NCBI RefSeq assembly: GCF_032854445.1
Contig: NC_088301.1
Span: 4,701,703 to 4,765,702, forward strand
Direction of reading: 5' to 3'
Length of the DNA: 64,000 nt
DNA from: Liolophura sinensis
Lineage: Eukaryota > Mollusca > Polyplacophora > Chitonida > Chitonidae
The notes under the pieces are model-generated. The model worked only from the letters and a program-made list of their open reading frames with translations. It ran no database searches and was not told the origin of the DNA. The position numbers were made by a program, and so were the translations under genes. This document shows positions 7,869 to 48,760 of the stretch, piece after piece; within the stretch, counting starts at the first letter, position 1, and the number at the start of each line of letters is the position of its first letter.

Positions 7869-7967
7869 CTCTTGTTCGCTCGCATCCTTAAAACACAAAC
7901 AAGCCGCTCTTCTTCGAAACCCGTCTTCGTCATACGTTCGGACTGAATTCGGTTTCTCTTTCACCAT
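7869..7967 (-). CDS. NUDT3-like: Diphosphoinositol polyphosphate phosphohydrolase (NUDT3/DIPP-like), first coding exon
   Basis: Reading right to left, ATG at 7967-7965 opens 33 codons: MVKEKPNSVRTYDEDGF then RRRAACLCFKDASEQE. The exon ends in phase 0 at GAG, followed by a GT donor (gttcgt). The vertebrate NUDT3/NUDT4 first exon has the same order (RTYD-x-DG, then RAACLCF) and the same 33-residue length before the next exon begins with VLLV. Family members are cytosolic Nudix hydrolases that remove the beta-phosphate from PP-InsP5 and also cleave diadenosine polyphosphates. The Nudix box itself lies in later exons, which I cannot find in 1-7868, so only the N-terminal strand region is visible. 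The start has a good context (ACACCATGG). The donor is acceptable but not strong. The gene is divergent to the IP6K gene at 39 kb. Confidence 0.82.
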
Positions 7968-8230
7968 GGTGTTCTCCCAGAAAATCCGAGCAAAGACATC
8001 AAGACTTGGGATGTTGTGCTGTGCGCGCTGTTCGCGGTTTGCCAGCCATCTTCAAAATTGACATCCAAACGCACATGTATGCGGTCTAGTGAGAGTTCGG
8101 CAAACCAGGGTTACCTCCCCTGGATTTCATTCTCTCTGAACGCCACGTCCACCATGGCTGCCTATCGGCAGAGTTCTTTTTATCTGTCCTTGTTGAATTT
8201 GATCACCGTTATGTCTCGATAAAGGGGATT
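7968..8230 (-). promoter_or_regulatory. Probable 5' UTR and promoter region of the NUDT3-like gene
   Basis: The 260 bases upstream of the NUDT3-like ATG (minus strand) are richer in CG dinucleotides than the surrounding AT-rich sequence, with CGCGCTGTTCGCGG and several CGCA/CGTC words. This is what one expects of an animal housekeeping-type promoter. No TATA box is evident and the transcription start cannot be placed from sequence alone. Confidence 0.4.
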
Positions 8231-8380
8231 CGTGGAACACCAATTTTATTCATTTCATCAATGAGTCAGTCATGTTAAGTGAAAAAAGTATAGGCCTATT
8301 TTCAGTGCAAAACGGTTTTCTTTAATACCTAGTTACTCCTAGGATGTCCATACTATATCCCAAGTTAATCTTACATTTCT

Positions 8381-8568
8381 CTCCAGCTCATGCCGGCTTC
8401 CTCTCCGTCCGTACGTGAGAAGTTCTGTCAGCAACCTGCGGGTGGTCGTGGGTTTCCCCCGGGCTCTGCCCGGTTTCCTTCCACCATAATACTGGCCGCC
8501 TTCGTATAAGTGAAATATTCTTGAGAATGGCGTAAAACTCCAGTCAAATAAATAAATAAATAAAAAAA
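8381..8568 (+). mobile_element. SINE, main family, 5'-truncated
   Basis: Begins at CTCCAGCTCATGCCGGCTTC and continues through CTGCGGGTGGTCGTGGGTTT, GGGCTCTGCCCGG, CCACCATAATACTGGCCGCC, AAGTGAAATATTCTTGAGAA and ends in a clean AAATAAATAAATAAATAAAA tail. The tRNA-like head is absent, which is typical of incomplete reverse transcription. Confidence 0.88.
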
Positions 8569-8901
8569 TTTCTCCAAGTAATATAAGCCCAGGCCATGAG
8601 ATTAGAATGTAGGCCTACATAGGTTTACACAAATTATGATTGCCTTGTGAAGGTTTTAAAGTTAAAACATTATCTTCTAAACCGCTCTCGTTAAATTCTG
8701 CAGTGTGGTCAGCCTATTAAAAATAACTTATCGGTAATTGAAAGATACACGCCTATATACAGGTCTATGCCTAGGCGCCAATTAAGTAATCAATAATTTT
8801 AAGGGTTGTGAAGTCCGAATCTCTACCCCTGAAGGGATTTCACAAAAAAGGCCCTGAATTGTATTCCTGAATCAAACCAGGTACTGTGCATAGCTTATAT
8901 C

Positions 8902-9162
8902 TTTATTTATTTATTTGATTGGTGTTTTACGCCGTACTCAAGAATATTTCACTTATACGACGGTGGCCAGCATTAGGGTGGGAAGAAACAGGGCAGAACC
9001 CAAGGAAACCCACGACCATCCGCGGGTTGCTGCAGACTCCCACTTAAGACCGGGGAGCAAGCCAGCATGAGCTGGATTTGAATTCACACCGACCGCATTG
9101 GTGAGAGACACCTGAATCATTGTGCCGTATTGGCGTGCTAACCTCTTGGACACGGAGGCCCT
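8902..9162 (-). mobile_element. SINE, main family, nearly full length
   Basis: Reverse-orientation copy. It starts with TTTATTTATTTATTTGATTG and runs through the family body to the reverse complement of the tRNA-like head (GCGTGCTAACCTCTTGGACA, then CGGAGGCCC). Several substitutions mark it as older than the copies at 20172 and 21587. Confidence 0.88.
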
Positions 9163-11150
9163 CACACGCCTTTCTACGTGATCGTGCGGTACCAAGACAA
9201 GGCTAGTGTATAGATGGGCGCCATCAGCCCAGTGATTTCCCCCCAGATTTGGCGATAATTGTTGACTTGTGTAGGGGCAGAAGTCAGATATTTACAGATT
9301 CCTTGAGTCTAAATCTGAATGAATGGTATAAAATAAAGCAACTACCTGAATATGAATTGATCGAAAACATCCAAAGTAAAAATGAACTATTTATTCACTT
9401 ATTAGCAAATGAATATTAAATTACTCAACAGGGCGCCGCCCACAAAGGTCAGCATGAAAAGAGAGTTCGAAGAAGTTGTCGAGTATGCCACGGCAAGTGG
9501 TGGCATTTCTGTAAAGTCAAAGCATGTCTTCGCTCTTCGTGCCGGATGTGAGAAAAGAGATGTCATTCGTAAAAGTCATATGGTAAAAGTCTTGTATATC
9601 AGCTTATGCCTTGGGTCATCCAGCGTCGAGAACACAGTGAAGAACTCAGGATAACCATTGTTGTATCCCCAGTGAATTGTGTTACGCAAAAACAAGTGGT
9701 AAGTGTGTAAATATATTTAAATTGCCATGGTTCAGCTTGAGCACGGAGATGATAGGCCTAATAGTACCTACGGACATATGTAAATAACGCACTGCTCAAC
9801 AGTTCGTTACCTTCATCATCGCGTGCAGTTGTTTACATAAGGCGAAAGAAGTCATCTCAGATTTATAAAAATGAGTAATGGTGACGCAATGTATGAGCCT
9901 CGCTTTCGACGTCACTGTTGTAAAAAGTATGACGCCCAAGTCTATTAGAGATGTTATCTGAACCGATGCAGTTGGTATGTTACTTATATTTATAGGAACT
10001 ATAATAGGCCCTACAGGCCTACGTGTAAGACTATGCTGGAAGGAAATGTAGAAACGTGCTGCATAAGTAGCCTACCATTGGAAAGATCATCGAAAACCCT
10101 TTCTAAAAATATTTATACTTAAGTTTTTGTATATTCTGTAAGACGGATCGGAAGCGAGAGACCGTGTGATCTCCTTGGTAACAAACGGAGATATCCGTTG
10201 GGTTTGTATCATTTTCAGCTTTCCAGATAGCCTGAGTATTTCTGCAGAGCTTTCGTGATGTTATTTTGTACATCTAGACGATGTGGCAAAAAGTGACCTT
10301 TGACCCCCAATGCTTTAACATTATTGCCTCTCACAATAGATGACGCTAGTGTGACAAAGAACTTGCACGTCACAAGTCTTTTGTTGCGCGACGCACAGCA
10401 CGTTGCGTGCTGTGGTTTCATCTGTGACGTATTCGGCCTACCCACTGTGATGTCCCGCTGTGGACGCTGTAGTGGAATCTCCAGCGTCACTGAAATGACG
10501 TAATACGTCCCACTTCGAACTTCTGTCGGTATCCCATTGGGTCGTGTCGTTATTCCGGATACACGAGCGCTTACGACCCTATGCAACAATCGAGTTGAGA
10601 TGAGTTGGGTCTTATTAAGTTCCCGTAGCCGAGGTTCGTATGTCCATCAGCTGAGCTGCGCCGTTGTCTAGCATATACAGGTACGAGAGTTTAGGGCCCG
10701 AATCGAGTTGAGCTGATATGGGTCATAATGTCCCGCATGTGCCGATCGAGAGTTTGGCTCGCGATACCCATTAACCAACTATGACCAAGTCGACAGAGTC
10801 AACTTATACGTTTATGCTTAAGTCGATATGTTTGACAAAACCTTGCAATCGTGAACAAATCTGACCAACTTAATTTGACCAGCTCGATTGATGGACGGAA
10901 CTGAGCACGACTGGAACGAGCGCCCGATGGGATGCTCCGCGTTGCTTCCGTCATGGAGGTATATATACAACTACGTGCTTCCATATACTGGCCCCTGCCC
11001 ATGTATTTGCTTCCATGTAGTGATTTCCGGTTTCTACAAGTCGTCGAAAACCTAATTCCTCCCTGATGAGAGGTTTTACGCCCGGCTTAAATCCATTTTA
11101 TCATCCTGACGCTATATACAATTGTCGTCCGTAACCTTAAATAGGTAATT
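9163..11150. other. Non-coding stretch, CpG-richer at 10.1-10.8 kb
   Basis: No recognised gene. A splice-acceptor-like CTCAACAG precedes 9433, and one frame after it encodes CRVCHGKWWHFC and KACLRSSC, but I cannot assign this and it ends quickly. From 10140 to 10800 CG dinucleotides are frequent, with a TGACGTAA CRE-like word near 10495. Two partial copies of AATCGAGTTGAG start near 10588 and 10692, a weak duplication. Confidence 0.35.
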
Positions 11151-11159
11151 TGTCACCCT

Positions 11160-11580
11160 ATATAGTGCCTTTTGTCGTACTGCAGCACATTTGACATTCT
11201 ATAGCACGTACATTTGTCGTCCTGTATAGCACATTTTGTGGTCTTGTATAGCACATTTGTGCACATTTGTCGTCCTGCAGCACATTTTGTCGTCCCATAG
11301 GACATTTGACGTCCTGTAGCACATTTTGCCGTTCTGTAGCACATTTGTCATTCTATAGCATATTTTGTCGTCCAATAGCACATTTGTCGTCCTATGGATA
11401 TATAGCACATTTGCAGTCCTACAGCAAATTCATCGTCCTACATAGCACATTTCGTCGTCCTATATTACACATGTCGTCCTATATATAGCGTTTTTAATCG
11501 CGCCTTAACGCACGTCGTCGTCCTATGTGGCAGTTTGCCGACCAAATACCTTTTGCCGTCCTAAATACTTGCTGTCGCCA
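11160..11580. repeat. Minisatellite, about 19-21-bp unit
   Basis: Tandem units of CGTCCTATAGCACATTTGT and close variants (CGTCCTGCAGCACATTTTGT and similar) run for about 20 copies. Units to the right become TGCCGTCCTAAATAC. Unit lengths vary by one or two bases, so the open frames over this region (methionine- and cysteine-rich peptides) are by-products. Confidence 0.85.
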
Positions 11581-11867
11581 TATATAAGCCAAGTTTTTGT
11601 CACTATTTTTTTCGGGTGTTTTATAAGACTTCATCGTTTTCTTCAGTTCCACTACTGACAATGGTTACCATTTATGGGATGTTTCCATGTTCATCGAGTT
11701 GTCTGAATTTGTCATTAATGACATCTAAGTGAAATTCGGGGAAACCATGTATTAACAGTGTATTGGTATTTCGACGGGTACAACTTGTGACCCTTATTGG
11801 CTGGCCTATACCTGTTATCGTATGGGTCTCACCAGGCCACTTCTGTCTCATTCACGAAAACGTATAT

Positions 11868-13795: not shown

Positions 13796-13925
13796 CCTGA
13801 CAAGACTTCTATGTCGTAAAGCCTCATCTTGTAAAACCTCGTGTCGTAAAACCTCATGTCGTAAATCCTCATGTCTTACAACCTCATATCCTGAAGCCTG
13901 ATGTCGTGAAGCCTGATGTCGTGCA
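13796..13925. repeat. Minisatellite, 15-bp unit
   Basis: About eight imperfect units of CCTCATGTCGTAAAA. The unit is a multiple of three, so the minus strand shows a five-residue periodicity (RHEVL-like) in an open frame. That frame is best explained as a repeat by-product. Confidence 0.8.
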
Positions 13926-16917: not shown

Positions 16918-17340
16918 AAGTATGAAGCCAAGATCTATGCCAACGAGTATGATGATTTTAACCAACTTCTTAATCGTGACGACGAACCACTAATCAAACT
17001 GTTCAATCATATGAGTTCGGACATATTATCGCAAAATCGTGCTCCCAGGCATTTAATATTTTCACGTCTATCTATTCGGCTAAATATCGAGACCTGATAC
17101 TGGACCTAATTAAATACGAGAACACAATAAGACTCCCGAACCAGCATCAGGAAACTGCGCGTCTTTCAACCTCTGCCATAGGACGAAATACGCGATGAAC
17201 TTTAGAAGCTGTGCTCACTGAAATCTTCACTACCTCATTCTACCACAAGTTCAATCCCACGGCAAACCTCCTTTCGAAGTCAAAAGAATTATCCGTTGCC
17301 AGCAGGATTCTGCTGGCGTTACCGCCGATCTGGCAAGTGT
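16918..17340 (+). pseudogene. Gag-like region of the DIRS-like element, broken
   Basis: One frame from 16921 reads YEAKIYANEYDDFNQLLNRD then DEPLIKLFNHMSSDILSQNR before a stop near 17097. A second frame downstream gives LEAVLTEIFTTSFYHKFNP and ASRILLALPPIWQV, ending at the SINE insertion. The position upstream of the reverse transcriptase suggests ORF1. Frames are disrupted and no domain can be named with certainty. Confidence 0.45.
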
Positions 17341-17341
17341 G

Positions 17342-17495
17342 ATTTTTTATTTATTTATTTGATTGGTGTTTTACTCCGTACTCAAGAATATTTCACTTAT
17401 ACGACGGCGGCCAGCATTATGGTGGGAGAAAACCGGGCAGAGCCCGGGGGAAACCCACGACCATCCGCAGGTTGCTGTCAGACCTTCCCACATAC
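17342..17495 (-). mobile_element. SINE inserted inside the retrotransposon, 10-bp target duplication
   Basis: Reverse-orientation, 5'-truncated copy of the main SINE (TTTATTTATTTGATTGGTGT to CCATCCGCAGGTTGCTGTCA). It is flanked by GGCAAGTGTG at 17332-17341 and again at 17496-17505, a perfect 10-bp target-site duplication. It separates the gag-like region from the RT region, so it arrived after the retrotransposon. Confidence 0.93.
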
Positions 17496-17519
17496 GGCAA
17501 GTGTGCTTAACCAGACTGC

Positions 17520-18400
17520 ACCCACAAACAGAGCTGTTTCAAATGCCAAGGGAAACACAGTCCATGTGTGTGTAAGCGAAAGATCAATTCAACTCTTACT
17601 CAGCTTGTTCCTCAGTTACCAACACCAATTGATGTAGCACTTGTAGCTTCTTTCCTAGACTTCCACGGCACAAATAGCTGTCTGATTCAGCGGCTTTTGA
17701 ATGGCTTCCAATTGGGCGTGGAGGGCAGTCCTTCTCACACACTTTTTAAGAAACACAAATCAACAATTGAGCACTCTGTTTTTTCATTGAAATTCGAAAT
17801 ATCTCGCGGACGAATTTCTGGTCCATATTCTGCACAACCACTGTCAAACCTAATCTGTTCTCCATTAGGTCTCATTCCCAAAAAAGAAGCCGGAAAATTT
17901 CGCCTTATCCACGATTTATCATTTTCTGAAGGTCAATCAGTTAATTCATTTATATCAAAGGAATTTTCAACAGTTCAGTATGAATCAGTTGAAAAAGTTA
18001 TTTCCCTGGTTCGACTATATGGCCGACACTGTCTTATGCCTAAAACAGACATTGAAGACGCTGTCCATCTGATCCCTATACATCCAGAGGATTACACATA
18101 CTTAGGCTTTTATCTTGATCAGTTTATCGGTTAGGCTTATCTTGACAGATGTCTACCAATGGGATCTTCATCTTCCTGTAAACTATTTGAAAGTTTAAGT
18201 AGCTGTCTTTAATGGATTATACAACAACATTTTGGTGTTAGAGGGATTTCACATCTCATCGACGACTTTAGATTCATTTCTGTTCCACGATCACCAAAAT
18301 GTGCACAGGACATTTCCAACTTTATTGAGTTGTGCAACCGTCTAGGAATTTCCATCAAATTAAAAAACATTATTTCGAAATTGTCGTCAAAGTGTAGGGA
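17520..18400 (+). pseudogene. Reverse transcriptase region of DIRS-like element
   Basis: An open frame to 18134 contains NLICSPLGLIPKKEAGKFRL then IHDLSFSEGQSVNSFI, the fingers/palm signature of DIRS and Ngaro RTs (PLGLIPKK and KFRLIHDLS). After a stop at 18132 the frame resumes with CLPMGSSSSCKLFE and the catalytic box ISHLIDDF near 18250. Upstream, in frame, lies CTHKQSCFKCQGKH, a zinc-knuckle-like cysteine cluster. The interrupting stops show it is dead. Confidence 0.85.
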
Positions 18401-18719
18401 ATAAAGGTAGGTTCAGAGAATATGGAAGTAAGATTACCGACGGAGAAGTTAGATAAGCCAGGGTCTTTTTTCCAAATTTAGGTGAAAACAAATTGTGACC
18501 TTAGCAGTCCTTACTCGGTTATCTTAACTTCTGTTGTTCAGTAATTATTCTTGGAAGAGCTTTTCTACGCAGACTGCAGAACTAAACGAAAAATCACATC
18601 ATTACATTCGTCTGAATAATGAGGCTAAGGCCGATATCGAAACTTGGCGGACTTTTCTGAGCTCTTTTCTTGGTAAATCATGTTTCTTATTTTCAAACTG
18701 GTCAACATGAGACTCCATA

Positions 18720-19158
18720 AAATCATATACAGATGCTGCTGGGGTTCACGGAGGTTTTACTTCCATTCTAGGCAGTTAGTAGCTTACTGGTTCATGGAAT
18801 CCCGATATGTGGTGCAGCTAGCATAGCTGCTAAGGAACTATTTCCAATTGCCATCCCTCCTGAGACATGGGGCGTCAAACCAAAAAATCACAAAGTTCTC
18901 TTTATGACAGACAATTCTTCCATTGTAGACATCATAAACAAAACATCTTCGAAATGCTCAACTATCATGAGGCTGATAGGTAGATTAGTATCAGCAAGAT
19001 TACAACAGAATACGTATTTCCGTGCTAAATATGTCCCAGGTAAATCAAATGTTGTTGCTGACCACCTTCCACGGTTTCATTTCTATCCTGCAACACAAAT
19101 AGCACCTTGGCTGGCCTCCAGCCCAGTAGCTATTACACCAGAAAATTACAAGCTGTAG
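18720..19158 (+). pseudogene. RNase H region of DIRS-like element
   Basis: Contains SYTDAAGVHGGF (first catalytic Asp region), then KNHKVLFMTDNSSIVDIINK and the family ending YVPGKSNVVADHLPRF. These correspond to the catalytic TD, the D-N-x-A/S-x-V segment and the G-x-x-N-x-x-AD-x-LSR tail used by DIRS-type RNase H. A stop after GS near 18777 interrupts the frame. The last part, 18904-19158, is open. Confidence 0.82.
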
Positions 19159-19249
19159 CCACATATCCACTATGTTCTTCAATGTTACAGAGTAGCATTC
19201 GTTCTTACAAATGTATCGCTAGTCAGATTTCTATCTGTCAGAAATCTGT

Positions 19250-20085
19250 CCGTATGGGTGGAAGTTTTTCCATCGACAGCTAAGAAGCTCGCACTTCACA
19301 TTGCCTTTTATTTCAAAAGAAGCGCGGTTCTGCTACTGCCTGTTCACATATTTCAGGGATAGCCTTTATATACAAAGCTGGGTTTTTTGATGATCCATCT
19401 GACTGTTTCTATATTAGTAAGATCTTGAACTCTTCGGGCTCTCAAACCTATTTAGGATATACGCCTTCCAATAACCATGGCTATTCTAGACCAGATAGTC
19501 ACGTCACTACATCATGTGATTCCCTCCCACACACACAGGTCACTTTTCAAGGCAATGTTTCTTTTAGCTTTTCATGCGTTTCTCCGTGTCGGGGAGATCA
19601 CTGTGACCATAAATAACAGCAACAACAAGACAGTTGTCGTGAGGACATGATGTTCCATTCTCATGGTGGGGGACTATGACCACTATAAGTTCCATCACCT
19701 TAACCCTCTACCACTTCAAAAACAGTGACTGACACCCTGTAAATATCAACATACCACTATCAAAAACAAAAAAAAAACTAGTTTGTGTCCGGTACGGGCC
19801 TTGAGTAACGCCTTGTTCCTCTGAGGCATTGCTATTTCAACTAAGCTCCGGGACTCCTGTAACATATAAACACATTTGTAACATATTGACAGCGGCCCTT
19901 AAGTTACTGACCTGGATTCCAAACACTACAACGGGCATAGTTTCCGTTTTGGTGCCGCAACCACAGCTGCGTCCCTAGGTATTCCAGAATCGGTTTTTCA
20001 GAAACTTGGGCGGTGGAAATCCATAGCACTGAACCGATACATTCGTATCAGTATATTCTCCATTCTTTGAAAGAGTTGTGGATAT
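19250..20085 (+). pseudogene. Tyrosine recombinase of DIRS-like element
   Basis: The catalytic residues are visible across broken frames: RLPITMAIL near 19460, MFLLAFHAFLRVGEIT with the first catalytic Arg near 19555-19600, HSFRFGAATTAAS with the H-x-x-R pair near 19944, and LGRWKSIALNRYIR with the nucleophilic Tyr near 20040, then a stop near 20070. This is a complete R...H-x-x-R...Y set of a phage-integrase-fold enzyme, the hallmark of DIRS-order elements. Internal stops near 19365 and 19650 inactivate it. Confidence 0.88.
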
Positions 20086-30560: not shown

Positions 30561-32804
30561 TCTTCATATCCTTTTTGGGCTGACCTGGTTCCCATGGCCA
30601 TCCTTCCACGCGCTTGTGTTCTAATTGCCAATATACTTAAGCACTCACGTTTTTTAAGACTTGTACGTTTGTATGTAGCCAGGAAGTACTGCTAACGCGG
30701 CCCCGGCAAGCTTGGCTCAAGTTCACAGAACACAAGTCATGGGTTTAGCCATACATATAGGCCACGTCTGTGACCTGCATCATCTGTGCAAAATCCGACG
30801 GAGCTGTTAAGGCGCACGTGCTTGGCTGGTGAGCAATCGTGTGTCATCTTACACGAAGAAAACCATGTCTGGCGAGGAGATTTAGAAGTGGGCGTGTTAG
30901 TAACACTGTTACAGAGTGGAGGAAAAGGTAACTGTTAACAAAGCTGAGGTAATTAGACTGAACCATGCCACAATTTCCTTAATAGCCCAACGTGTGAAAT
31001 AATTGAGCCAGGCGTGGCGTGCTACTTTGGGAAGTTACACACAGCAAGGGTACAGTTGAGATAACAGTTCTCAGTGACTTTTTGTTTAGATTCACCCTGT
31101 GGCCCTGTATTTAGTATTGAGTGATAAACTGTGTTTTGTTGACAAATGCATCTTTCTTCTTATGTAGGATTTTCACACATATATCATATATCCCATTCAG
31201 TTGTCCGAGACTTGTAAATTAAGTTTATGGGTCTGCTGATGTGATATTTGTCAGAAAATGTGCCAATCTGCACGTTTGACCCTGCTCTTAACAGCCCAAT
31301 ACCAAGACCTTATATCAAGACTACCGGTATGTACCTAATATCAAGACTATATATGGACTAATTAAATCCTTTCTACTTGTGTTGTATTATATTGTAAAAA
31401 ACAATGATATGGACTAGAATATACAGAAGTTTATGAACCCTTAACTTAATGACCCAGGCTATGGCACAAAACAAGCCTTCTGTATGACTAGTGCATGCAC
31501 TTACATTTATGCAAATTTTTGACAATAGCAGTGTCAAATTCATCATTCAGAATTTACTGTTCATGTCATTTACATTTCTTTAGCTGTTTAGTAGTATAAA
31601 ATATGATATTTAAAAAAAAAAAAAAAGTGGGATGCCTCACTTGGACACGTGAGAATTCTTTTAAATAATTTACTCATCTGTATGAGAAATGGAAAGAGAT
31701 ATGTACATTTTACTCCATACCATTGTGTTTAGAAGATAATTAGATTAATTTTAATTATTGATAACTTAATATATATTGCATATTTTCAGTGTTTGCTATA
31801 GAATTTTTTTAGCTCTTGATTGGCATTCTCTCAATCTTTGAGGTTACTGTCATGCACAATTCGGGCAATTGGATCCAAGATTTGCCTCTAAAATGAGAAG
31901 TGGAGGAGGACTGATTATGTTGTTGATGCACAATAAATTTCTGCACTGTGAGCTTGCACCTAACTAAAATATATCAGAAGTTTGTCTGTTTTGGACAGAA
32001 CTGAAAACTTTTGTGCCAGTGTTACTTCCCACCCCCCTGGGGGTTACCAAAGTATTAAACACAATACTTTGACTCCACTTCCAGCAACCACAGTTCCAAA
32101 AAATGGTGGTCATGCTGGGTAAATTTTTTGATATGTTGTTGAGATAAGTGCAAGCTGCATGAGGTGGAATGGCGTTGTAGCACATGAAAGCTAGGGCATA
32201 TATATTTTGCAGATTGACAAATTTACTCCATGGTCAGGTAAGGAAAATCAATGCACTCATGTAACATGTACCGTGTTTCAGCTAAAGATTAATATTTTTC
32301 AGCTGATATACTTTGCTTGATTCTGACCAATTCATCCACCATGTAAGGCTACTTAAAGAGTTTTTCCTGAAGTACCGGTACTTAATATCTTATCAGAGAA
32401 ACATGTCAGGCGGTGGTATCAGAAGTGTCATTTTGAGGCCTTTGTGTGTTTCTTAATATGCATTTTTACATACTTTAGGTGACATATACCTGTACTGTTG
32501 AATCAGATCTGAGCACTTAACATGATCTGTTTGCATAATATGCTATAATATGTACTTCCTAGTTTACAGTTCACTGGTCATGTCCTTGTATCATGCTAAA
32601 AGTATCGCACTAACAAAGCATCCCACAAGCTGTGAAATCAACACAAAGGATGAGCGAGAAATGCACGGGTTAGTGTCTATGGTGGTAGTTGTAGTTACGT
32701 GCATTGGCCAATTCATGATCATTGATCCAGGTCATGTTCTACTCTGTACAGAATTAAGAGAACATCTATTAAAACTGTTTCTTTAGTCAGTTTAAATCGA
32801 GTTA

Positions 32805-33172: not shown

Positions 33173-33284
33173 GGTAGGTAAACATACTGGTTGGTGTGTT
33201 GTGTGACACACTGGATATTGTTGGAAAGGTCATCTCTATTTAATATGTATGTATGCACATGGCCCACAACTAAACGCAGGGTAG

Positions 33285-34815
33285 AATTGTCACCTACGGA
33301 GACTTACAGGTGTTATTACCTGTGGAGACGTACGGGTATAACTATTGTCACCTGTGGAGAAGTACAGACTATTGTCACGTGTGGAGACGTACTTGTACTG
33401 TCACCTGTGGAGACGTATGTGTATTGTCGTCTGTGGCATCATCCAGATATTGTCGTCTGTGGAGACGTACTGTCACCTGTGGAGACGTATGTGTACTGTC
33501 ACCTGTTGAGACGCACAGGTATTGTCACCTGTGGAGACGTATGTGTACTGTCACCTGTGGAGACGTACTGGTATTGTCACCTGTGGAGACGTACGTGTAC
33601 TGTCACCAGTGGAGACGCACAGGTATTGTCACCTGTGGAGATGTATGTGTACTGTCACCAGTGGAGACGTACTGGTATTGTCGTCTGTGGAGATGTACAG
33701 GTATTGTCGTCTGTGGAGACGTACAGGTATTGTCACCTGTGGAGACGTACGTGTACTGTCACCAGTGGAGACGTACTGGTATTGTCGTCTGTGGAGATGT
33801 AAAGGTATTGTCGTCTGTGGAGACGTACTGGTATTGTCACCTGTTGAGATGCACAGGTATTGTCACCTGTGGAGACGTACGTGTACTGTCACCAGTGGAG
33901 ACGCACAGGTATTGTCACCTGTGGAGACGTATGTGTACTGTCACTAGTGGAGATGTACTGGTATTGTCATCTGTGGAGATGTACAGGTATTGTCGTCTGT
34001 GGAGACGTACAGGTATTGTCACCTGTGGAGACGTATGTGTACTGTCACCAGTGGAGACGTACAGGTATTGTCACCTGTGGAGACGTATGTGTATTGTCAC
34101 CAGTGGAGACGTACAGGTATTGTCACCTGTGGAGACGTATGTGTACTGTCACCAGTGGAGACGTACTGGTATTGTCACCTGTGGAGACGTATGTGTACTG
34201 TCACCAGTGGAGACGTACTGGTATTGTCGTCTGTGGAGATGTACAGGTATTGTCGTCTGTGGAGATGTACAGGTATTGTCACCTGTGGAGACGTACAGGT
34301 ATTGTACCTGTGGAGACGTACGTGTACTGTCACCAGTGGAGACGTACTGGTATTGTCGTCTGTGGAGATGTACAGGTATTGTCGTCTGTGGAGACGTACA
34401 GGTATTGTCACCTTTGGAGACGTATGTGTACTGTCACCAGTGGAGACGTACTGGTATTGTCGTCTGTGGAGATGTACAGGTATTGTCGTCTGTGGAGACG
34501 TACAGGTATTGTCACCCGTTGAGACGTACAGGTATTGTCACCTGTGGAGACGTACGTGTACTGTCACCAGTGGAGACGTACTGGTATTGTCGTCTGTGGA
34601 GACGTACTGGTATTGTCGTCTGTGGAGACGTACTGGTATTGTCACCTGTTGAGACGTACAGGTATTGTCACCTGTTGAGACGTACAGGTATTGTCACCTG
34701 TGGAGACGTACAGGTATTGTCACCTGTTGAGATGCACAGGTATTGTCACCTGTGGAGACGTACATTTATTCTCACCTTTGGAGACGTACAGGTATTCTCA
34801 CCTGTGGATTAGGTA
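33285..34815. repeat. Minisatellite, 26-bp unit, about 58 copies, open in three frames
   Basis: The unit is GTATTGTCACCTGTGGAGAC plus GTACAG, with a few linked variants: ACC/GTC at the TGTCxxC position, TGTGG/AGTGG/TGTTG, and GTACAG/GTACTG/GTATGTGTAC. The unit contains no stop triplet in any forward frame, and 26 is not divisible by three. Each forward frame therefore reads the same 26-residue peptide over three units, producing long overlapping open frames of up to 500 codons. These have no independent coding support. Confidence 0.96.
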
Positions 34816-39134: not shown

Positions 39135-39146
39135 TACCAGACAACA

Positions 39147-39345
39147 ATGCCCGAACAAAACATGGAGTCTGCGAACACAGAGGGCCAACCTGTAGAACTT
39201 AAACCATTCATCCACCAGGTTGGGGGGCATACGAGCATGTTCCGATTAAACGAGAACACAGTGTGTAAACCCCTGTGTTTACGAGAGTACCGTTTCTATT
39301 CAGCACTGCCGCAGGAGTTACTCCCCTTTACACCAGAGTGCAGAG
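39147..39345 (+). CDS. IP6K: Inositol hexakisphosphate kinase, coding exon 1
   Basis: This gene encodes a 381-residue IP6K in five coding exons (1146 coding bases including stop). IP6Ks phosphorylate InsP6 at position 5 to give the inositol pyrophosphate PP-InsP5. Exon 1 gives residues 1-66: [20 protein letters not shown] then [32 protein letters not shown] and PFTPECRG. This follows the family order (PFxHQVGGH, CKPL, ExxFY, LPxEL, FTPxxxG). It ends in phase 1 before GTATGA. The start chosen is the first in-frame ATG; the in-frame ATG at 39162 has a better context (AAACATGG) and would drop five residues. It is divergent to the NUDT3-like gene. Confidence 0.93.
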
Positions 39346-39629
39346 GTATGATATTATAACCAGGGGTAAGGCCATATATGTATTATTCTGACCGCTGTGG
39401 TCAATCGTTAAGTTGTCCAGTCAGCGTCCGTTGTGGTCACCTCAACAGAACAACAGGAACATTCCAAGCCCCGTGTCATCAACAACAGTTCATTTATTTT
39501 AAACGTTTGTTGTGAGGTCAAGCTATTGTATGCGCAGTCAATTATTTTTCAAGAATCGACACTTGCGAGATAGTGGTCTGAGTGACAACTTGTACCACCT
39601 GAGTGCGCATCCAATTGGTGTGGCAAAGA

Positions 39630-39706
39630 GGGATTCAAACCCACAAACACAGGACTTTAAAAACATTCCAATATCCCACTGAGCTATTTGGGAAGGCCTC
39701 TCAACC
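39630..39706 (-). mobile_element. tRNA-like head of another SINE or tRNA relic
   Basis: The minus strand reads TCCCAAATAGCTCAGTGGGA then TATTGG, with GTGGGTTTGAATCCC further on. These fit the A box (TAGCTCAGTGGG) and B box (GGTTTGAATCC) of RNA polymerase III promoters. The cloverleaf is not convincing and the body is unlike the two SINE families in the window. Confidence 0.5.
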
Positions 39707-40342
39707 TCTTCCTTTTAGACAACTTTAAACGTTCATTGTGACGTCAATCCTTTGTCTAACTTCAGAATGTCATATGTGAAGGGTCCATGCAATTTTCATT
39801 AATGTGAAATTGATTTTCTCACAGTTTCGTTCCTTGCCTTTTTTTCAAATACACCAAATGTTGCCAGTGTGAGGAAAGGTAAAGTGGCGTCATCAATTTT
39901 CTTAGGTAAAAATATGAACAGCAAAACAGAGTTTGTATAAAGGTGAACTGGTGGGTATAATTTGTGGCATTCTGGTTACGAATATTTTGGATATCTTGAG
40001 GCCTTGACATGTCAGTCGTGTAATCTACTGTCAGATTTCACCGTTTATATGTAAGCTTCGTTCAGTTCAGATATAGACCGAGTCACTGTCCATAATCTTA
40101 CACACCCAGTGTATGCTCAAGTATTGGCGTGTGTGGAAGTCGGTATGTCTGCACATGTTCTTTATCTAAGGCGACATGAACTATGCATTTCCTTGTAACA
40201 TGCAGGGGAGTCCTGGTACTGCCAGGGTTATAAAGTAAATGCATTTTTGACTGGCATTTCTTTCCAGATTACAAAAGAACAATAACTGTTGATTCTTGAA
40301 AAATAGCATCGGCAGCTGCATAACACTGGGCTCTGATGTTTA

Positions 40343-40456
40343 AGTAGGAGAAATGCCTTGCAAATGAATATTCTTGAAAAATAATCGGCTCATCACTCCG
40401 CGCCTAGCCCATTATTTTTCAAGAATCGTCATATGCTCGGCATTTCTCTACTACAT
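40343..40456. repeat. Imperfect inverted repeat, about 44-base arms
   Basis: GTAGGAGAAATGCC and ATTCTTGAAAAATAAT on the left pair with ATTATTTTTCAAGAAT and GGCATTTCTCTACTAC on the right, with about 20 bases of loop. Single copies of the core (ATTATTTTTCAAGAATCG) also occur near 39541, and GATTCTTGAAAAATAGC near 40292, so it is probably a small foldback element family. Confidence 0.75.
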
Positions 40457-42815
40457 AACTGTAACCTGGAGAGTGCCCAGAACTCAGAGGTCCTTCCTAG
40501 TGCACTCTCCAGCCCAATCCTAACTTGTCCCTCTTTCAGAGAGCACTGTTTATATATAATCTCTAACAATACAAAGCTTACTTAACCAGAGGTAACCATC
40601 TGGTTGTCATGATGAATACAATAAAATTTTGTTCAGCCAAGTTCATGACCCCAAACTAACTTCAGAGCGCTGTCCACCTGAAACCCTGTAGCAGGTGCTG
40701 TGGCACATTAACCATCAAATTCGTCTCCATGACCACGAGTTTGCAGACACTAATATGTTCCTTATCTCTTCGTCTGGATTTATCTCAAGTACTGTGTCGA
40801 TCAGTTATTTCTTAAGCTTCATGGGCCCAAGATTTCTCATTGTTGCTTAAAGAGATCCACTCTTCTGATAGGTTCGACATATGTGATAACTACATCAGGT
40901 GTTTAAATGGAGCAGGCTCTGACATTGCCATCCTAACGTTGGAGCTGCCTCGGACGAATCATTTTGGAACTTTTGCATCAGAGGTTTTATATGATGCCAC
41001 GATGTTTGATAATTGCTACTTGTTATTTATTCAGGGCTATATGCACTTTGCACAAGCAGTGTCATGTGAGGTATGCATGCAGACTGTACTTGTCGCTTAT
41101 ACAATACACATTGGCAGTGGAACAGGAGGGGCCTGTGGGTGGGGGTGGGCTGGTGGTGGGGGTGTGGGGTGCTGAAGCCACCCTGAAATTAAAGGGGGGA
41201 TGCATACCAAGGAATATTACTTCCACTGCATCAGCTCCCTCAAATTTTATAATGTTCCACGGCTCCTGAAGCATGCAGCCTACATGTATACACGTTACAG
41301 TACACCTACTGCATACCAGGTTCACAGTCTGCACATTGTGTCAGAGCAAGCTGATTTCTGGTTTTGTCATGGCATCACCTCTCCTTGCATGGTGAAGAAT
41401 CATGCCTGTCATCTGAGAGTGCCTGTTGCCTACTAGTGGAAAACTTTATTTATTTGTATTTATTTGTTTTTAAATATTCATTACAATGAAGATGTTAATG
41501 GTGAACATTGTTGACCACTTGCTGCCACCACGCAAAGCCGCTACAAGCACAGTCAGAGCAGGAAAATCTGCATATTCCCTGTCCATAGTCAGTCTTAAAC
41601 CCAAACCTCATGTCTCACAATTCAAAGGACAAGTGTCACACAAACGACTGTCAAATAAGTAAATCTAACTGCAAAAGTACCCCCGCATCAGGATGCATGC
41701 CACACCCCCAAAGGGACATAAATGAATGTGTACAGTCAAAACAAAGATATCTGTATTAATCAGTGCTTTGTTGTATTGATGCATACTATATAATTGTGGA
41801 AGGTAAACAGGTCAATTTACAATGAAACTCTTTTTCCTGTGAAGCCTTCCTACCTTCAGACAAAACTACCACCGCAAAACAGTAAACAAATTGCATGAAC
41901 TTCAGTGACGAATGAGTTAGTCATGATTATGCTTTGCAGTTTGAAAGATTCGGGGTTTAATATACTGATAAATATAGAACTCATTAAAGTGCTTAATCTC
42001 AATGGAAACGAACTGATTTACAATGGCTGATTCTCATTGTGCAAGTCCCCACAACTCTTAGAGGGTATGCATGCACATGTTAGAGTTGTTAGAGGATGTC
42101 TAAGATAATGTACTGATATGCATGTATGATACAGCATGCCTGAATAGGGTGTAATTGACCCTGGAACCTTGTGCTGTTTTTGCTCGTACGTGCTAGCACG
42201 ACTACAGACATGACCTATCATATCTTCATGGCTAGATGTTCTAGAGCTGAGGGTGCATGTACCTTTCAGAAAGATATTCAAGCACCCATATATGTGCTTG
42301 CATTTTAGAGCCCTGTTCTAACTTGTTTCCTGGATACCACTGTTGCTGCCTTGTGACAGTGCTACATTCAGTAATAGTTAAGTACTTGCAATTTCCTGTT
42401 CAACATGGCCCATGAAAACCCCTGGTATTAACAATACTATTATAAAGCCTGCTTACAAGGGCGGACATGAGATGTATATTACTGAGTCATATATATGTAT
42501 GGTATGTAGGCTGCTCCATGCACTCTCTGGTTGTATGTTAATTCTGTACCACAAGCCTTTTAATAAATCTATAAATCTGCTGTGCATTTACAGTTGTATA
42601 GGACCTGTCAGTATCTTATAAATTGTGAAGTGTAACAGAATCATTCAAATATCTCACATTGATGTAGAATTGTGAATAAAATCTCAGCTTATTTTTTATT
42701 TCATAGGCTTACTCTAACAGGATAGATACTTTGGTATATGCATGAAATACATTCTCTTTGTAGTCCACATAAGTCACATCCAGATTGTATCAAAGGATTA
42801 ATGACATTCATGCAT

Positions 42816-44625
42816 TATTACAGCATAATTCACATCTAGACTGTATTACAGCATAATTCACATCTAGACTGTATTACAGCATAATTCACATCTAGACTGT
42901 ATTACAGCATAATTCACATCTAGACTGTATTACAGCATAATTCACATCTAGACTGTATTATAGCATAATTCACATCTAGACTATTACAGCATAATTCACA
43001 TCTAGACTATTACAGCATAATTCACATCTAGACTGTATTACAGCATAATTCACATCTAGACTATTACAGCATAATTCACATCTAGACTATTACAGCATAA
43101 TTCACATCTAGACTGTATTATAGCATAATGCACGTTCAGAGAGTATTATGGCGTAATTTACATCCAGACAGTATTATAGGAAAATTCACATCCAGGCAGT
43201 ATTTCAGCATAATTCACAGACAGTTTTCTGGCATATAATTCACATCCAGACAGTGCTGTAGCATAATTCACATCCAGAGAGTATTGTAGCCTAACTCACA
43301 TCCAGACAGTGCTGTAGCATAACACACACATAGAGACAATGCTGTATCATAATTCACATCCGGACAGTATTATAGCATAATTCACAAACCAGACGGTATA
43401 GTAGCATAATTCACATCCAGACAATGCTGTAGCATAATACACATCGAGGCAGTGCTGTAGCATAATTCACAAACCAGACAGTATATTAGCATAATTCACA
43501 TCCAGACAGTGCTGTAGCATAATTCACATTCAGACAGTATTGTAGCATAATTCACATCCGGACAGTGCTGTAGCATAATTCACATCCAGACAGTGCTGTA
43601 GCATAATTCACATCCAGAAAGTATTGTAGCACAGTTCACATTCAGACAGTATTGTAGTATAAATCACATCCAGACATTACCATAGCATAATTCACATCCA
43701 GACAGTATTGTAGCACAGTTCACATTCAGACAGTATTGTAGTATAAATCACATCCAGACATTACCATAGCATAATTCACATCCAGACAGTACTATAGCAT
43801 AATTTACATCCAGACAGTATTATAGGAAAATTCACATCCAGGCAGTATTTCAGCATAATTCACAGACAGTTTTCTGGCATATAATTCACATCCAGACAGT
43901 GCTGTAGCATAATTCACATCCAGAGAGTATTGTAGACTAATTCACATCCTGAGAATGCTGTAGCATAATTCACATCCAGACAGTGCTGTAGCATAATTCA
44001 CATCCGGACAGTATTATAGCATAATTCACAAACCAGACAGTATAGTAGCATAATTCACATCCAGACAGTGCTGTAGCATAATTCACATCCAGACAGTATT
44101 GTAGCACAGTTCACATTCAGACAGTATTGTAGCATAATTCACATCTGGACAGTGCTGTAGCATAATTCACATCCAGACAGTGCTGTAGCATAATTCACAT
44201 TCAGACAGTATTGTAGCATAATTCACAAACCAGACAGTATAGTAGCATAATTCACATCCAGACAGTGCTGTAGCATAATTCACATTCAGACAGTATTGTA
44301 GCATAATTCACAAACCAGACAGTATAGTAGCATAATTCACATCCAGACAGTGCTGTAGCATAATTCACATCCAGACAGTACAGTAGCATAATTCACATTC
44401 AGACAGTATTGTAGCATAATTCACATCCGGACAGTACCATAGCATAATTCACAAACCAGACAGTATAGTAGCATAATTCACATCCAGACAGTGCTGTAGC
44501 ATAATTCACATCCAGACAGTACAGTAGCATAATTCACATTCAGACAGTATTGTAGCACAGTTCACATTCAGACAGTACTATAGCATAATTCACATTCAGA
44601 CAGTATTATAGCATTAATAACTATC
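42816..44625. repeat. Minisatellite in IP6K intron 1, about 28-bp unit, over 60 copies
   Basis: Unit GTAGCATAATTCACATCCAG plus ACAGTGCT. The left block (42824-43120) is a homogeneous CATCTAGACTGTATTACAGC variant with 26- and 28-bp members. The rest mixes several variants (CACAAACCAGACAG, CACATTCAGACAG). A 135-base stretch is duplicated at 43155-43289 and 43801-43935. The array ends at an assembly gap. Confidence 0.96.
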
Positions 44626-44641
44626 AGTTTGTGGTGTTGTA

Positions 44642-44841
44642 NNNNNNNNNNNNNNNNNNNNNNNNNNNNNNNNNNNNNNNNNNNNNNNNNNNNNNNNNNN
44701 NNNNNNNNNNNNNNNNNNNNNNNNNNNNNNNNNNNNNNNNNNNNNNNNNNNNNNNNNNNNNNNNNNNNNNNNNNNNNNNNNNNNNNNNNNNNNNNNNNNN
44801 NNNNNNNNNNNNNNNNNNNNNNNNNNNNNNNNNNNNNNNNN
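44642..44841. other. Assembly gap (200 N)
   Basis: Exactly 200 N, a conventional placeholder length. The sequence just before (TAGCATTAATAACTATCAGT, then TTGTGGTGTTGTA) reappears just after (TAGCATTAATAACTATCAGT, then TGGTGTTGGTGTA), so the two sides may overlap. The true size is unknown. Confidence 0.98.
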
Positions 44842-45009
44842 GAGAGAGATTAGCATTAATAACTATCAGTTGGTGTTGGTGTAGCATTATTAACTTTTAT
44901 ACAGTATTATAATGTTCATTAGTCACATTAAGCTAGCATTATTGCTATTTCTATAATTTATATTATATCATTATAGCCACATTCAAATAATCTCACAGCT
45001 TTAGTCACC

Positions 45010-45560
45010 CTGGCACCATCATTTTGCCACCACCATTACCAAGATTCAACACCTTCACCCAACTAGCCTGACACCATTATCCCATCATTGAGACACCATC
45101 TTCCAAGCATCCCTGACACCATCATCCAAGCATCCTGACACCATCATCCAACATTCAGACACCATCATCCCATCATTGAGACACCATCTTCCAAGCATCC
45201 TGACACCATAATCCCAGTATTCACACAATCATCCAAGTATCCTGGCACCATCATTCCAGCATTCAGACAGCATCATCCCAGCATTCAGACATCATCATCC
45301 CAGCATTCAGATAGCATCATCCCAGCATTCAGACAGCAGCATCCCAGCATTCAGACAGCATCATCCAGACAGCATCACCCAGACACCATCATCCCAGCAT
45401 TCAGACACCTTCATCCAGACAGCATCATCCCAGCATTCAGACAGCATTATTCCAGCATTCAAACAGCATCATCAGAGCATTCAGACAGCATCATCCAAGC
45501 ATCCTGACACCATCATCCAAGCATCCTGACACCATTACCCCATCATCCTTACATTACCAG
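45010..45560. repeat. Minisatellite in IP6K intron 1, about 22-bp unit
   Basis: Units of CAGCATTCAGACAGCATCAT CC, with CAAGCATCCTGACACCATCA variants on both sides. Short 13-14-bp sub-units (ATCATCCAGACAGC) are interspersed. It ends about 290 bases before coding exon 2. Confidence 0.9.
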
Positions 45561-45853
45561 CCCAGGACCTGGACACCAACATGCCTGCCAGATTCTGCAA
45601 CCAAAACCCCATCATTCAACATCATTATTTCAACCTCTTTCAGACACCTCAGCATCCTAACAACATCATTCCAGCACCGGTGCGTCGCTATGGCACCACC
45701 AACCAAACACCAAACCACCATCCTGTCCCAACCATCTCATCATTTCACAGCCATTATGCTCTATTCCTCGGCATTCTGTAGCTATTATGCCAGCAGGAAG
45801 TGTTCTGTAACCAAACCAACTGGTTCATTGTCTAACTGCGTTATTAATTCCAG

Positions 45854-45992
45854 GTGTTGTACAGGTGAAGGTACATGTATATGGGCAAGGGAAGGGCAGT
45901 TTCCGACTGCTGGCTCACAGGCTGGACCTGAGTGGAGAGAAGCCAGGGTTTGACAACATACACAGGTCCCTGAGACCAGCACAAACAGACAG
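45854..45992 (+). CDS. IP6K: IP6K coding exon 2
   Basis: Acceptor AATTCCAG, donor AG|GTAAGT. It completes Gly67 from exon 1 and gives VVQVKVHVYGQGKGSFRLLA then HRLDLSGEKPGFDNIHRSLR and PAQTD, ending in phase 2. The VV-x-V start matches the strand that follows FTPxxxG in vertebrate IP6Ks; the remainder is the variable middle of the protein. The length of 139 bases (2 + 45 codons + 2) is exactly what the neighbouring phases require. Confidence 0.88.
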
Positions 45993-46059
45993 GTAAGTAA
46001 AGACAACGGAAACAGAATGCGTCAAGAATGTTTCTTCTCCAAGTTTTGTCTGAGTCTTT

Positions 46060-46440
46060 TAAAAAGAAGGAACAAGTTTTTCTTTTGAAGCTTATCTGAT
46101 TGCTTGGTTTTCCTATTTGTGCTTGTCTGATGGCTTGGTTTTCCTGTCTATGCTTGTCTGATTGTTTTAAATATAGAATGAACCAGTTTTCGTATCCTTT
46201 TGTATCTCAATGTTTCAAGTAGAATGAAGCCGTTTTCGTATCCTTTTGTATCTCAATGTTTTAAGTAGAATGAAGCAGTTTTCCGATCCATGCTTTCCTG
46301 AATCAGTCTGGAATGAATCATTTGTCCTATTCATGCTAGCTCAGTGTTTTAATCTGGAATGGACCAGTTTACCTACCCTTGCTGGTCTGAGGGATTCAAC
46401 TGGAATGAATAAGTTTTCATATCCATGCTTATATGCTTAT
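46060..46440. repeat. Minisatellite in IP6K intron 2, about 46-bp unit
   Basis: Two nearly identical 46-base units (GTTTTCGTATCCTTTTGTAT, CTCAATGTTT, AAGTAGAATGAAGC) at about 46182-46275, with three to four diverged units on either side (GTTTTCCGATCCATGCTTTC and similar). Confidence 0.75.
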
Positions 46441-46861
46441 AAATTTAAAACATTTAGGCTGAATATGTCCTGGGCCCACATGCACGAAGCTTGTAACTAC
46501 CATGGCGACATAGTGCCTACAGTGCTGGTAGCCATGGTAGTTATGTGTTCTTAAAGTTAAGAGGGCTTTATGCAAGTGGGCCCTGGCCTTTTTTTTCATA
46601 CCCATGTTAATGTTGATGAAATATAGTACTGACACTTGGACAAAAGGTACCGATTTTTATGAGACCTACATCCTACACTGCTTTCAATAGTGACTTTCTG
46701 CCTGGGATAATGTCTTAAATTGTAGTATATTAACTTGCATTATTCAAGTACCGCTAATTAAATTAAAAAGACCAACTTGAGAAACAACAGGTACTTTTGT
46801 ATGGTGTGAATACTTTGCATCAACATGTATGATCATATGTCTTTGTGATGTTCTGTGAGAG

Positions 46862-47025
46862 GATTGAGAATGAGGAAAATCAGTCCAGTGAGGATCACGA
46901 GGATCATGAGGATCACAATGACCAGGAGGATCAGAGGCCAAAGAATTACTCAGCCAATCAGAACCCGTGGATTGAGGACGTGTTTAATCGTCAGATGAGG
47001 AGGCTAAGTATGGAAGATTCTAACA
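46862..47025 (+). CDS. IP6K: IP6K coding exon 3 (variable acidic region)
   Basis: Acceptor CTGTGAGAG, donor AACA|GTATCC. It completes Arg113 and encodes IENEENQSSEDHEDHEDHND then QEDQRPKNYSANQNPWIEDV and FNRQMRRLSMEDSN, ending in phase 1. The NPW word and the basic stretch after it match vertebrate IP6Ks (NPW before the RxxS region). The His/Asp/Glu-rich stretch at about residues 119-133 is low complexity. The exon start is chosen to keep phase with exon 2; AG dinucleotides two bases earlier would break it. Confidence 0.85.
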
Positions 47026-47217
47026 GTATCCTTCCAATGCGTTTTCTGTGAGATGGTAAAAGGACTTTAAATGTTTAAAGGAAAAGACAATAAATTCATC
47101 TGCCTACCATTTATCATTATACAATGCTGGAGCAGGATATAGCTCTGTGGTTAGGAAATTCGAGCAAGCCCTAGTCACTGGCACAGTCTCTTACACTAGT
47201 ATAATGCACAGACAGGC

Positions 47218-47530
47218 TGTGTTGTGGATTAGCCATGTTGTGGACTGGCCATATCATGGACTGGCCGTGTCATGAACTGGCCATGTTGTGGACTGGCTGT
47301 GTTGTGGACTGGCCATGTCATGAAGTGGCCATGTCATGGACTGGCTGTGTCATGGACTGACCGCGTCGTGGAATGGCCGTGTCATGAAGTGGCCAAGTCA
47401 TGGACTGGCCATGTCATGAAATGGCCATGTCATGGACTGGCTGTGTTGTGGACTGGCTGTGTCTTGGACTGGCCATGTCGTGGACAGGCCGCGTCATGAA
47501 GTGGCCATGTCAAGGACTGGCTGTGTCTTT
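47218..47530. repeat. Minisatellite in IP6K intron 3, 16-bp unit
   Basis: About nineteen units of GTCATGGACTGGCCAT with TCATGAAG, TTGTGG and CTGTGT variants. It ends about 100 bases upstream of coding exon 4. CG dinucleotides occur in several units (GTCGTGG, CCGCGTC). Confidence 0.93.
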
Positions 47531-47629
47531 CAGCTTCAACTCTAACAAATCATTCTTGAGGCACACCAGTAAAGATTGAAAAAGAAAAAACACATTGCTT
47601 CATCTGAAAAATACCTTGACCACAAACAG

Positions 47630-47805
47630 AATTCATATCACTGGAGAATATAGTCGCACGTTACACAAAGCCTTGTGTCCTGGACCTGAAGATGGGACAA
47701 CGACAACATGGTGATGACGCGTCACCAGAGAAACGGCAGCTTATGCAGGATAGATGTGAGAACTCAACCTCCAATCAGCTGGGGGTGAGGGCCTCTGGGA
47801 TGCAG
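47630..47805 (+). CDS. IP6K: IP6K coding exon 4 (inositol-kinase signature)
   Basis: Acceptor CACAAACAG, donor ATGCAG|GTAACA. It completes Lys168 and gives [20 protein letters not shown] then [20 protein letters not shown] and [16 protein letters not shown]. It contains the family signature PxxxDxKxG (PCVLDLKMG, residues 182-190), which binds the inositol phosphate, followed by the conserved QHGDDAS and GVR-x-x-GMQ words. It ends in phase 0. Confidence 0.96.
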
Positions 47806-48292
47806 GTAACACTTTTCTAATGTCCTATTGGAAGTGATGACAGGCATACAGAACGTACATGTAGATTGATGTATAGCCATGTAAACAGTGGGATACAATG
47901 ATTTCCCTCAGAATTTTGAGGAGTCCTCTGGTTCCTTTGTTTAGGTGGCATTAAGTGGTCAAAGGTGATCCCTGGTGTTGCTTTACATGAAGTTTTGGGG
48001 AACTTCCTCCTATGTATGACTTAAAGTGTGTTATGTCACGGTGGAAAAGTTTTACAAAGGTTGTTGGATTAATCTACGCAGTCTGGTTGACTCTGCATCC
48101 ATAATAAGTATGTATACTGGTTTCCTTTAATTTGTATAAGTATAAAACTTCTTGATTTAAAAAAAAACAGTCATCAATTCTTCAACCGGTTTTACAGAGA
48201 TTTCCATGTATTCTGTGGGAAGTATGGCATTCTCATGCGTGGAAGCATTTTCTTCGTATTTTAAATAATATAATACTTTTGTTAACTTTCAG

Positions 48293-48760
48293 GTGTATCA
48301 TGTAGAAACAGAACAATACATCTACTTCAGCAAATATGACGGCCGGGCTCTTAATGCGGAAGGCTTCAAATCCAGTCTTGCTCAGTTTTTACACAATGGC
48401 CAGAGACTACGTTATGAACTTATTGCTCCGATTCTGTTCAAACTCTGTGAACTGAAAAAAGTCGTGGAGACACTGGATACCTTTCGTTTTTATTCTAGTT
48501 CACTGCTGATCATGTATGATGGGATAGATGCTTGTTGGGGGTCCAGCAGTGGGCACCAGAATATGGGGGGAGGGGCTGAGGCTCCCTGTGTGGGGCCCAG
48601 GGTGGATGTTAGAATGGTGGACTTCGCACATTCCACATTCAAGGGATTCATGCGCGAGGATGAGGAGCATATGGGCCTGGACACAGGATACCTCCATGGG
48701 CTGTCTACCCTTATAGAGCTGTTCCAAGAACTGCAACAACTTTCACAAAGACAAACGTAG
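48293..48760 (+). CDS. IP6K: IP6K coding exon 5 (C-terminal catalytic half)
   Basis: Acceptor AACTTTCAG; 155 codons and stop. It starts VYHVETEQYIYFSKYDGRAL (family YxxxxGRxL), followed by FRFYSSSLLIMYDG with the SSLL motif at residues 295-298 and VDVRMVDFAHSTF with the metal-binding D-F-A-H-S at 336-340, and ends GYLHGLSTLIELFQELQQL. All key IP6K residues are present, so an active enzyme is expected. A Gly-rich insert (CWGSSSGHQNMGGGAE) lies between SSLL and DFAHS where vertebrate enzymes have a longer variable loop. Confidence 0.96.
   Translation: MYHVETEQYIYFSKYDGRALNAEGFKSSLAQFLHNGQRLRYELIAPILFKLCELKKVVETLDTFRFYSSSLLIMYDGIDACWGSSSGHQNMGGGAEAPCVGPRVDVRMVDFAHSTFKGFMREDEEHMGLDTGYLHGLSTLIELFQELQQLSQRQT

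Follow-up and report, generated by a model that had tools for sequence, protein, structure and literature searches.

Do the enzymes that make and break down an inositol pyrophosphate lie side by side in a chiton genome because they have long been linked, because they became neighbours by accident, or because they are regulated together? Inositol hexakisphosphate kinases (IP6Ks) add a beta-phosphate to inositol hexakisphosphate (InsP6), and DIPP hydrolases take the beta-phosphate off. To our knowledge, there are few reports of animal genes for opposing enzymes of a single metabolite lying side by side. The question is raised by a 64,000-nucleotide (nt) stretch of Liolophura sinensis DNA (NC_088301.1, positions 4,701,703 to 4,765,702), called the window below. 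The chromosome that carries it is C7, other C-numbers being chromosomes of the same assembly; coordinates given without a chromosome are window positions.

We find that a DIPP gene and an IP6K gene, IP6K-b, are intact next-door neighbours in divergent orientation, in agreement with an initial annotation of the window. The reading that we prefer, an inherited, ancient IP6K-DIPP proximity of independently transcribed genes, has in our judgement about an even chance of being right. Among the matches listed in a literature search, none was a paper on an IP6K-DIPP neighbourhood in its own right.

Two intact neighbouring genes

The initial annotation had called a minus-strand exon of DIPP/NUDT3 type at 7869-7967, and this exon proves to open a complete gene. 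Its coding sequence runs from 7967 down to 7869 and ends at a GT donor in phase 0; coding exons 2 (C7:4687091-4686936), 3 (C7:4683451-4683367) and 4 (C7:4681607-4681498) follow left of the window, colinear on the same minus strand and 22.6-28.2 kb further left than exon 1. The four joined exons of this NUDT3/4-type gene give an open 450-nt frame of 149 amino acids (aa) with GT-AG at every junction, and the coding part, Nudix exons included, extends over 28.2 kb. With the whole gene assembled, a lone exon or a pseudogene is ruled out. Exon 2 carries a complete Nudix box, reading GGVEPLEDPENAAKREILEEAGV, under the pattern GX5EX7REUXEEXGU that we take to define the box.

The protein matches Pfam NUDIX with an E-value (E) of 2.5e-19, and its closest solved relative is DIPP1 (E 5e-57, aligned residues 1 to 143). 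Among its 45 PDB matches the top 15 (E 5e-57 to 6e-47) are named DIPP1, 2 or 3, except 2duk (MS0616), and DDP1 entries come next, from E 6e-12. Human NUDT3 is identical at 86 of 143 aligned residues and colinear from residue 1, the full Nudix box included; relative to the family NUDT3, NUDT4, NUDT10 and NUDT11 the chiton protein has a shorter C-terminal tail, the human tail being as we presume it. On these comparisons the C7 gene is of DIPP type over its full length rather than of another Nudix family, and by family its product is a predicted PP-InsP5 hydrolase.

The complete plus-strand IP6K proposed at 39147-48760 was likewise recovered. Its five coding exons lie at 39147-39345, 45854-45992, 46862-47025, 47630-47805 and 48293-48760, all on the plus strand, the second and third being placed by the joined frame, the fourth carrying the motif PCVLDLKMG and the fifth carrying SSLL and VDFAHS before closing with a stop codon. 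Joined at GT-AG junctions they form an open 1146-nt frame of 381 aa that covers the whole Pfam IPK profile (E 3.7e-57). Like IP6K1-3, the protein has the PxxxDxKxG, SSLL and DFAHS motifs, the N-terminal PFIHQVGGH exon, which is common to human IP6K1/2, and the RQHGDD stretch; the IPK motif names and the human IP6K letters in our comparisons are what we take them to be. A tree of six sequences, drawn with variable linkers and IP3K omitted, human IP6K1/2 letters as we presume them and human IPMK letters from the PDB match, separates the IP6Ks from the two IPMKs with support 100. The nine PDB matches of IP6K-b, among which human IP6K does not occur, have IPMKs as the best and the IP6K entries 4o4b-f next. 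Motifs, N-terminal exon and tree together place IP6K-b as an IP6K rather than an IPMK or IP3K, and by family it is a predicted InsP6 kinase.

Nothing recognisable as an intact gene had been reported between the pair, and our scan of 8-39 kb gave the same result. All 41 stop-to-stop frames of at least 80 aa were run against Pfam and none was recognised as an intact gene, though short-exon or non-coding genes could escape such a scan. One of the 41 frames exceeded a curated cut-off, with a match to IMS_HHH_1 (E 3.7e-7, 33274-34809); it is an artefact of a frame through a 26-base minisatellite, with no single stretch passing. A codon-bias scan (trained on 1,390 codons, partly those of these genes) found no exon chain in the spacer and has low power for single exons: spacer stretches scored up to 7.8, several of them above DIPP exon 1 (6.2) and IP6K exon 1 (5.6). 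Searches of the window with Rfam and for tRNAs gave zero matches. Neither of two outcomes named beforehand as refuting the initial annotation, missing Nudix exons to the left or an intact gene at 8-39 kb, was observed.

Gene copies elsewhere in the genome

A second IP6K, IP6K-a, lies on the minus strand at C7:4253746-4248197, its start 0.46 Mb left of the DIPP start. It is known from exon matches: exons 1 (C7:4253746-4253546), 4 and 5 match clearly, and exons 2 and 3 were recognised by eye. Genome-wide, the IPK profile gave nine matches, a lower bound, with 10 of 10 candidates scored. Four of the nine make up the two IP6K genes, both on C7 and less than 0.5 Mb apart; the other five, classed by motif, are IPMK-like on C1 (two) and IP3K-type on C6 (two) and C4 (one). 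No third IP6K was found on searching the genome with the whole IP6K-b protein (12 matches). The C4 match (C4:11649474-11649653) has one internal stop codon in CpG-rich DNA (observed/expected 0.83) and is possibly a diverged or decaying copy.

The genome has seven DIPP matches, four being the C7 gene and three a single copy on C11. This second, diverged DIPP (C11:30367179-30349916) has an intact Nudix box and, at 69 of 142 residues identical, less resemblance to human NUDT3 than the C7 protein has (86 of 143); it includes one weak match (E 0.32) and an exon 3 just 28% alike. None of the nine IPK matches is on C11. The one genome match of PPIP5K is on C2, so that a cluster of the whole inositol-pyrophosphate pathway is not seen.

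Linkage in mammals and the role of chance

The initial annotation had also suggested that the linkage may be ancient. In the passages cited, human IP6K3 and NUDT3 are both assigned to chromosome 6 (PMC4063336); an interval of pig chromosome SSC7, 29.48-31.57 Mb (~2.1 Mb), lists ITPR3, IP6K3, LEMD2, GRM4 and NUDT3, and also ILRUN (PMC9714057); a segment of rat chromosome 20 holds Ip6k3, Itpr3, Grm4 and Nudt3 (PMC9416443); and mouse chromosome 17 has Itpr3 at ~27.1, Lemd2 at 27.19 and Nudt3 at 27.58 Mb, Nudt3 thus lying 0.4-0.5 Mb from both, with Ip6k3 not named in the passage concerned (PMC4203797). As in the chiton, an IP6K and a DIPP share a chromosome, at most about 2.1 Mb apart in pig, whereas the mammalian pair has intervening genes, going by the pig list, and the chiton pair is directly adjacent and divergent.

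Proximity of this kind is rare under random placement. If two IP6K and two DIPP genes are scattered randomly over 28,010 genes, the protein-coding count published for the chiton assembly (PMC11068029), the probability of an adjacent pair is 0.0003 and that of a pair within 0.5 Mb is 0.007; the pair was chosen post hoc, and these values are not genome-wide significance. For a mammal-sized genome the corresponding probability is 0.005 within 0.6 Mb, a distance that we presume, and 0.016 within the documented 2.1 Mb. Coincidence would have to produce both; for this pair the joint probability is about 0.007 multiplied by 0.005 to 0.016.

Several observations weigh against an ancient linkage. RPS10, TAF11, ILRUN and UQCC2, four of four mammalian neighbours, are all on chiton C6 (ILRUN confirmed there by PDB 6vhi at E 3.5e-21, against 0.016 for NBR1); in human, UQCC2 presumably lies between ITPR3 and IP6K3, and RPS10 and TAF11 near NUDT3. 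The mammalian block is therefore not conserved, and what is shared is the pair. An inositol trisphosphate (IP3) receptor gene, which in mammals lies close to IP6K3, is on C7 (three of four domain matches, the tested exon being IP3 receptor in 18 of 18 PDB matches, and the C6 match being a ryanodine receptor), about 40 Mb from the IP6K-DIPP pair. Domain matches of metabotropic glutamate receptors are scattered, with two of 10 on C7, at 46.6 Mb, one group II-like and the other ambiguous between groups II and III. A search for LEMD2 with the MSC domain gave no genome match, which weighs neither for nor against. Of seven neighbour families tested, the six with matches have none within 1 Mb of the pair. 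Twenty 10-kb pieces sampled between IP6K-a and DIPP (200 of ~416 kb), their top-scoring frames read by eye, showed no recognisable gene of the mammalian 6p21.31 neighbourhood. Further shared neighbours thus did not turn up, and a conserved 6p21.31 microsynteny block is unsupported. The comparison spans two lineages, chiton and mammals, and the pair was picked from many possible antagonist pairs. Of the suggestion of ancient linkage there stand the closeness of the pair in pig, the common human chromosome and the IP3 receptor on C7; the four neighbours on C6 and the lack of any neighbour-family match within 1 Mb speak the other way.

The strongest competitor is coincidence, in which rearrangement, or the move of an IP6K copy, made the genes neighbours in the chiton line and the mammalian closeness arose separately. 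The four neighbours on C6 favour it, as does the number of antagonist enzyme pairs, so large that some will be adjacent by chance. According to the passages cited from PMC12005716, chromosome rearrangement is unusually frequent in chitons, and part of the genome is duplicated in this species; a chiton-only adjacency therefore weighs less. We regard coincidence as quite possible though short of probable, and ancient proximity as somewhat more likely. On the ancient reading, an early bilaterian ancestor would already have had an IP6K and a DIPP close together, duplication of the kinase would have put the chiton DIPP gene between two IP6Ks, and IP6K3 and NUDT3 would have stayed near each other on one mammalian chromosome.

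Transcription units and co-regulation

CpG content was mapped by change-point segmentation of 250-base bins over the window and 30 kb of left flank. Three pieces result, with observed/expected ratios of 0.31 (up to 7500), 0.87 (7501-31000) and 0.37 (31001-64000), that is, a CpG-rich spacer of ~23.5 kb, with no strand assigned, between two CpG-depleted blocks. DIPP exon 1 lies ~0.4 kb within the CpG-rich side of the first block edge. Both depleted blocks extend beyond DIPP and IP6K-b, the right one through a TRPN-type channel gene to the window end. The sharp edges seem to trace gene bodies from sequence alone. Near the second edge, at 30600-30930 on the plus strand, is a putative IP6K-b promoter or non-coding first exon, marked by the block edge, by a splice-acceptor-like sequence that precedes the ATG exon and by a candidate GT donor after 30927.

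The simplest reading is that the DIPP unit would start near exon 1, followed by the ~23.5-kb spacer, and that the IP6K-b unit would start ~8 kb before the exon that carries its ATG. In oyster, CpG depletion follows gene-body methylation, and this methylation peaks in genes with broad expression, as stated in the passages cited from PMC3840415; by that measure DIPP and IP6K-b are probably broadly expressed. The coding starts are 31 kb apart and the block edges 23.5 kb, far over the <1 kb by which divergently paired genes are defined in the cited part of PMC2670823. The separate blocks and the spacer between them therefore argue against a shared promoter; a bidirectional promoter is disfavoured, and each gene probably has its own, ~23 kb apart.

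These observations bear on a further alternative, selected co-regulation, in which a shared regulatory domain would keep the synthesis and breakdown genes together and set the balance of the enzymes. Pathway logic favours it. So does the location of DIPP, IP6K-b and also IP6K-a in CpG-depleted DNA of the kind that in oyster accompanies methylated, broadly expressed genes, in contrast to the unlinked C11 DIPP, whose exons lie in CpG-rich kilobases (0.86-0.90). However, CpG depletion is a frequent feature of broadly expressed genes and does not indicate coupling, the promoters are apparently far apart by the block edges, and the sole PPIP5K match is on C2. The co-regulation that had been put forward with the initial annotation thus found no support here; for IP6K-b and DIPP it is possible but not indicated, and we judge the selected form unlikely. 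The arrangement would be explained without shared control, as two ordinary, intact, independently transcribed inositol-pyrophosphate genes side by side, IP6K-b adding the beta-phosphate to InsP6 to make 5-diphosphoinositol pentakisphosphate (5-PP-InsP5) and DIPP removing it, if the activities are those of their families.

Similarity between the two IP6K copies

Unlike IP6K1-3, the two chiton copies have a first exon far more alike than their kinase core. Coding exon 1 is 82% identical between IP6K-a and IP6K-b at both the protein and the DNA level, and the alignment covers 204 bases, its ends falling at most 3 bases from the edges of the coding exon; protein identity is 55% in exon 4 and 48% in exon 5. 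In an alignment with human IP6K1/2, whose letters are as we presume them, the copies agree at 54 of the 62 columns of exon 1 and at 102 of the 210 of exons 4-5, a contrast with Fisher p 2.8e-8. It is absent from two control pairs: human IP6K1 and IP6K2 share 40/62 and 124/210 (p 0.46), and IP6K-a and human IP6K1 share 35/62 and 115/210 (p 0.88). Synonymous change between the copies is likewise rarer in the first exon, at 0.54 per site against 0.75 (p 0.009, from rounded counts), and identity at four-fold sites shows a weaker trend (12/23 against 12/44, p 0.06).

Faster evolution of IP6K-b alone is unsupported as the cause. Over the 124 columns where human IP6K1 and IP6K2 agree, IP6K-a is conserved at 96 and IP6K-b at 88; the IP6K-b core shares 102 of 210 columns with IP6K-a, 106 with human IP6K1 and 102 with human IP6K2. 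The kinase-core tree gives IP6K-b the longer branch (0.65 against 0.35). As to when the duplication took place relative to the vertebrate split, the approximately unbiased test accepts all three topologies (p 0.34-0.62). Copying or gene conversion of exon 1 between IP6K-a and IP6K-b after an old duplication would fit these patterns best, and strong constraint on exon 1 in the chiton lineage is a possible alternative. The mosaic similarity is a separate, checkable oddity. A further reading, which we judge unlikely, is an ancient bilaterian IP6K-DIPP cluster that molluscs and mammals would both have retained over more than half a billion years because a shared regulatory domain balances the two enzymes, with gene conversion across DIPP also maintaining the likeness of the first kinase exons in the chiton.

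Flanking and spacer sequence

To the right of IP6K-b the recognised coding neighbour is a TRPN/NOMPC-type channel exon on the minus strand (60930-62207; PDB 5vkq, E 1.7e-134), whose gene runs off the window; ankyrin-like frames, seen by eye, continue right of it to 63994. In the interval between IP6K-a and DIPP, C7:4.33-4.38 Mb holds lipase-type exons (two of two tried matched Pfam, E 1.5e-13 and 1.7e-10) and three exons that by eye are 5'-nucleotidase-like, without a Pfam match.

The spacer between DIPP and IP6K-b holds a decayed retroelement on the plus strand at 17206-19616. Pfam RVT_1 (reverse transcriptase, E 0.03) and RVT_3 (RNase H, E 5e-4) match at 17.5-19.2 kb, both under the curated cut-off, and mark the stretch as a retroelement remnant. 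The remaining sub-threshold Pfam matches in 8-39 kb resemble chance or repeat matches, several of them in minisatellites. Minisatellites lie at 33286-34808 (26-mer, 58.6 copies), 42822-44614 (28-mer, 64.2 copies) and 53905-54824 (36-mer, 26.4 copies). A run of Ns at 44642-44841, either a gap or a withheld stretch, starts 28 bases past the second of them.

Significance

The adjacency in the chiton and the proximity in mammals are together of moderate interest, and the evolutionary reading is plausible but unproven. Should the arrangement be due to chance, it would illustrate cleanly how pairs picked after the fact come to look striking. Given an ancient proximity, IP6K and DIPP would form a testable animal metabolic pathway cluster, and a simple place to ask whether linked expression sets inositol-pyrophosphate levels.

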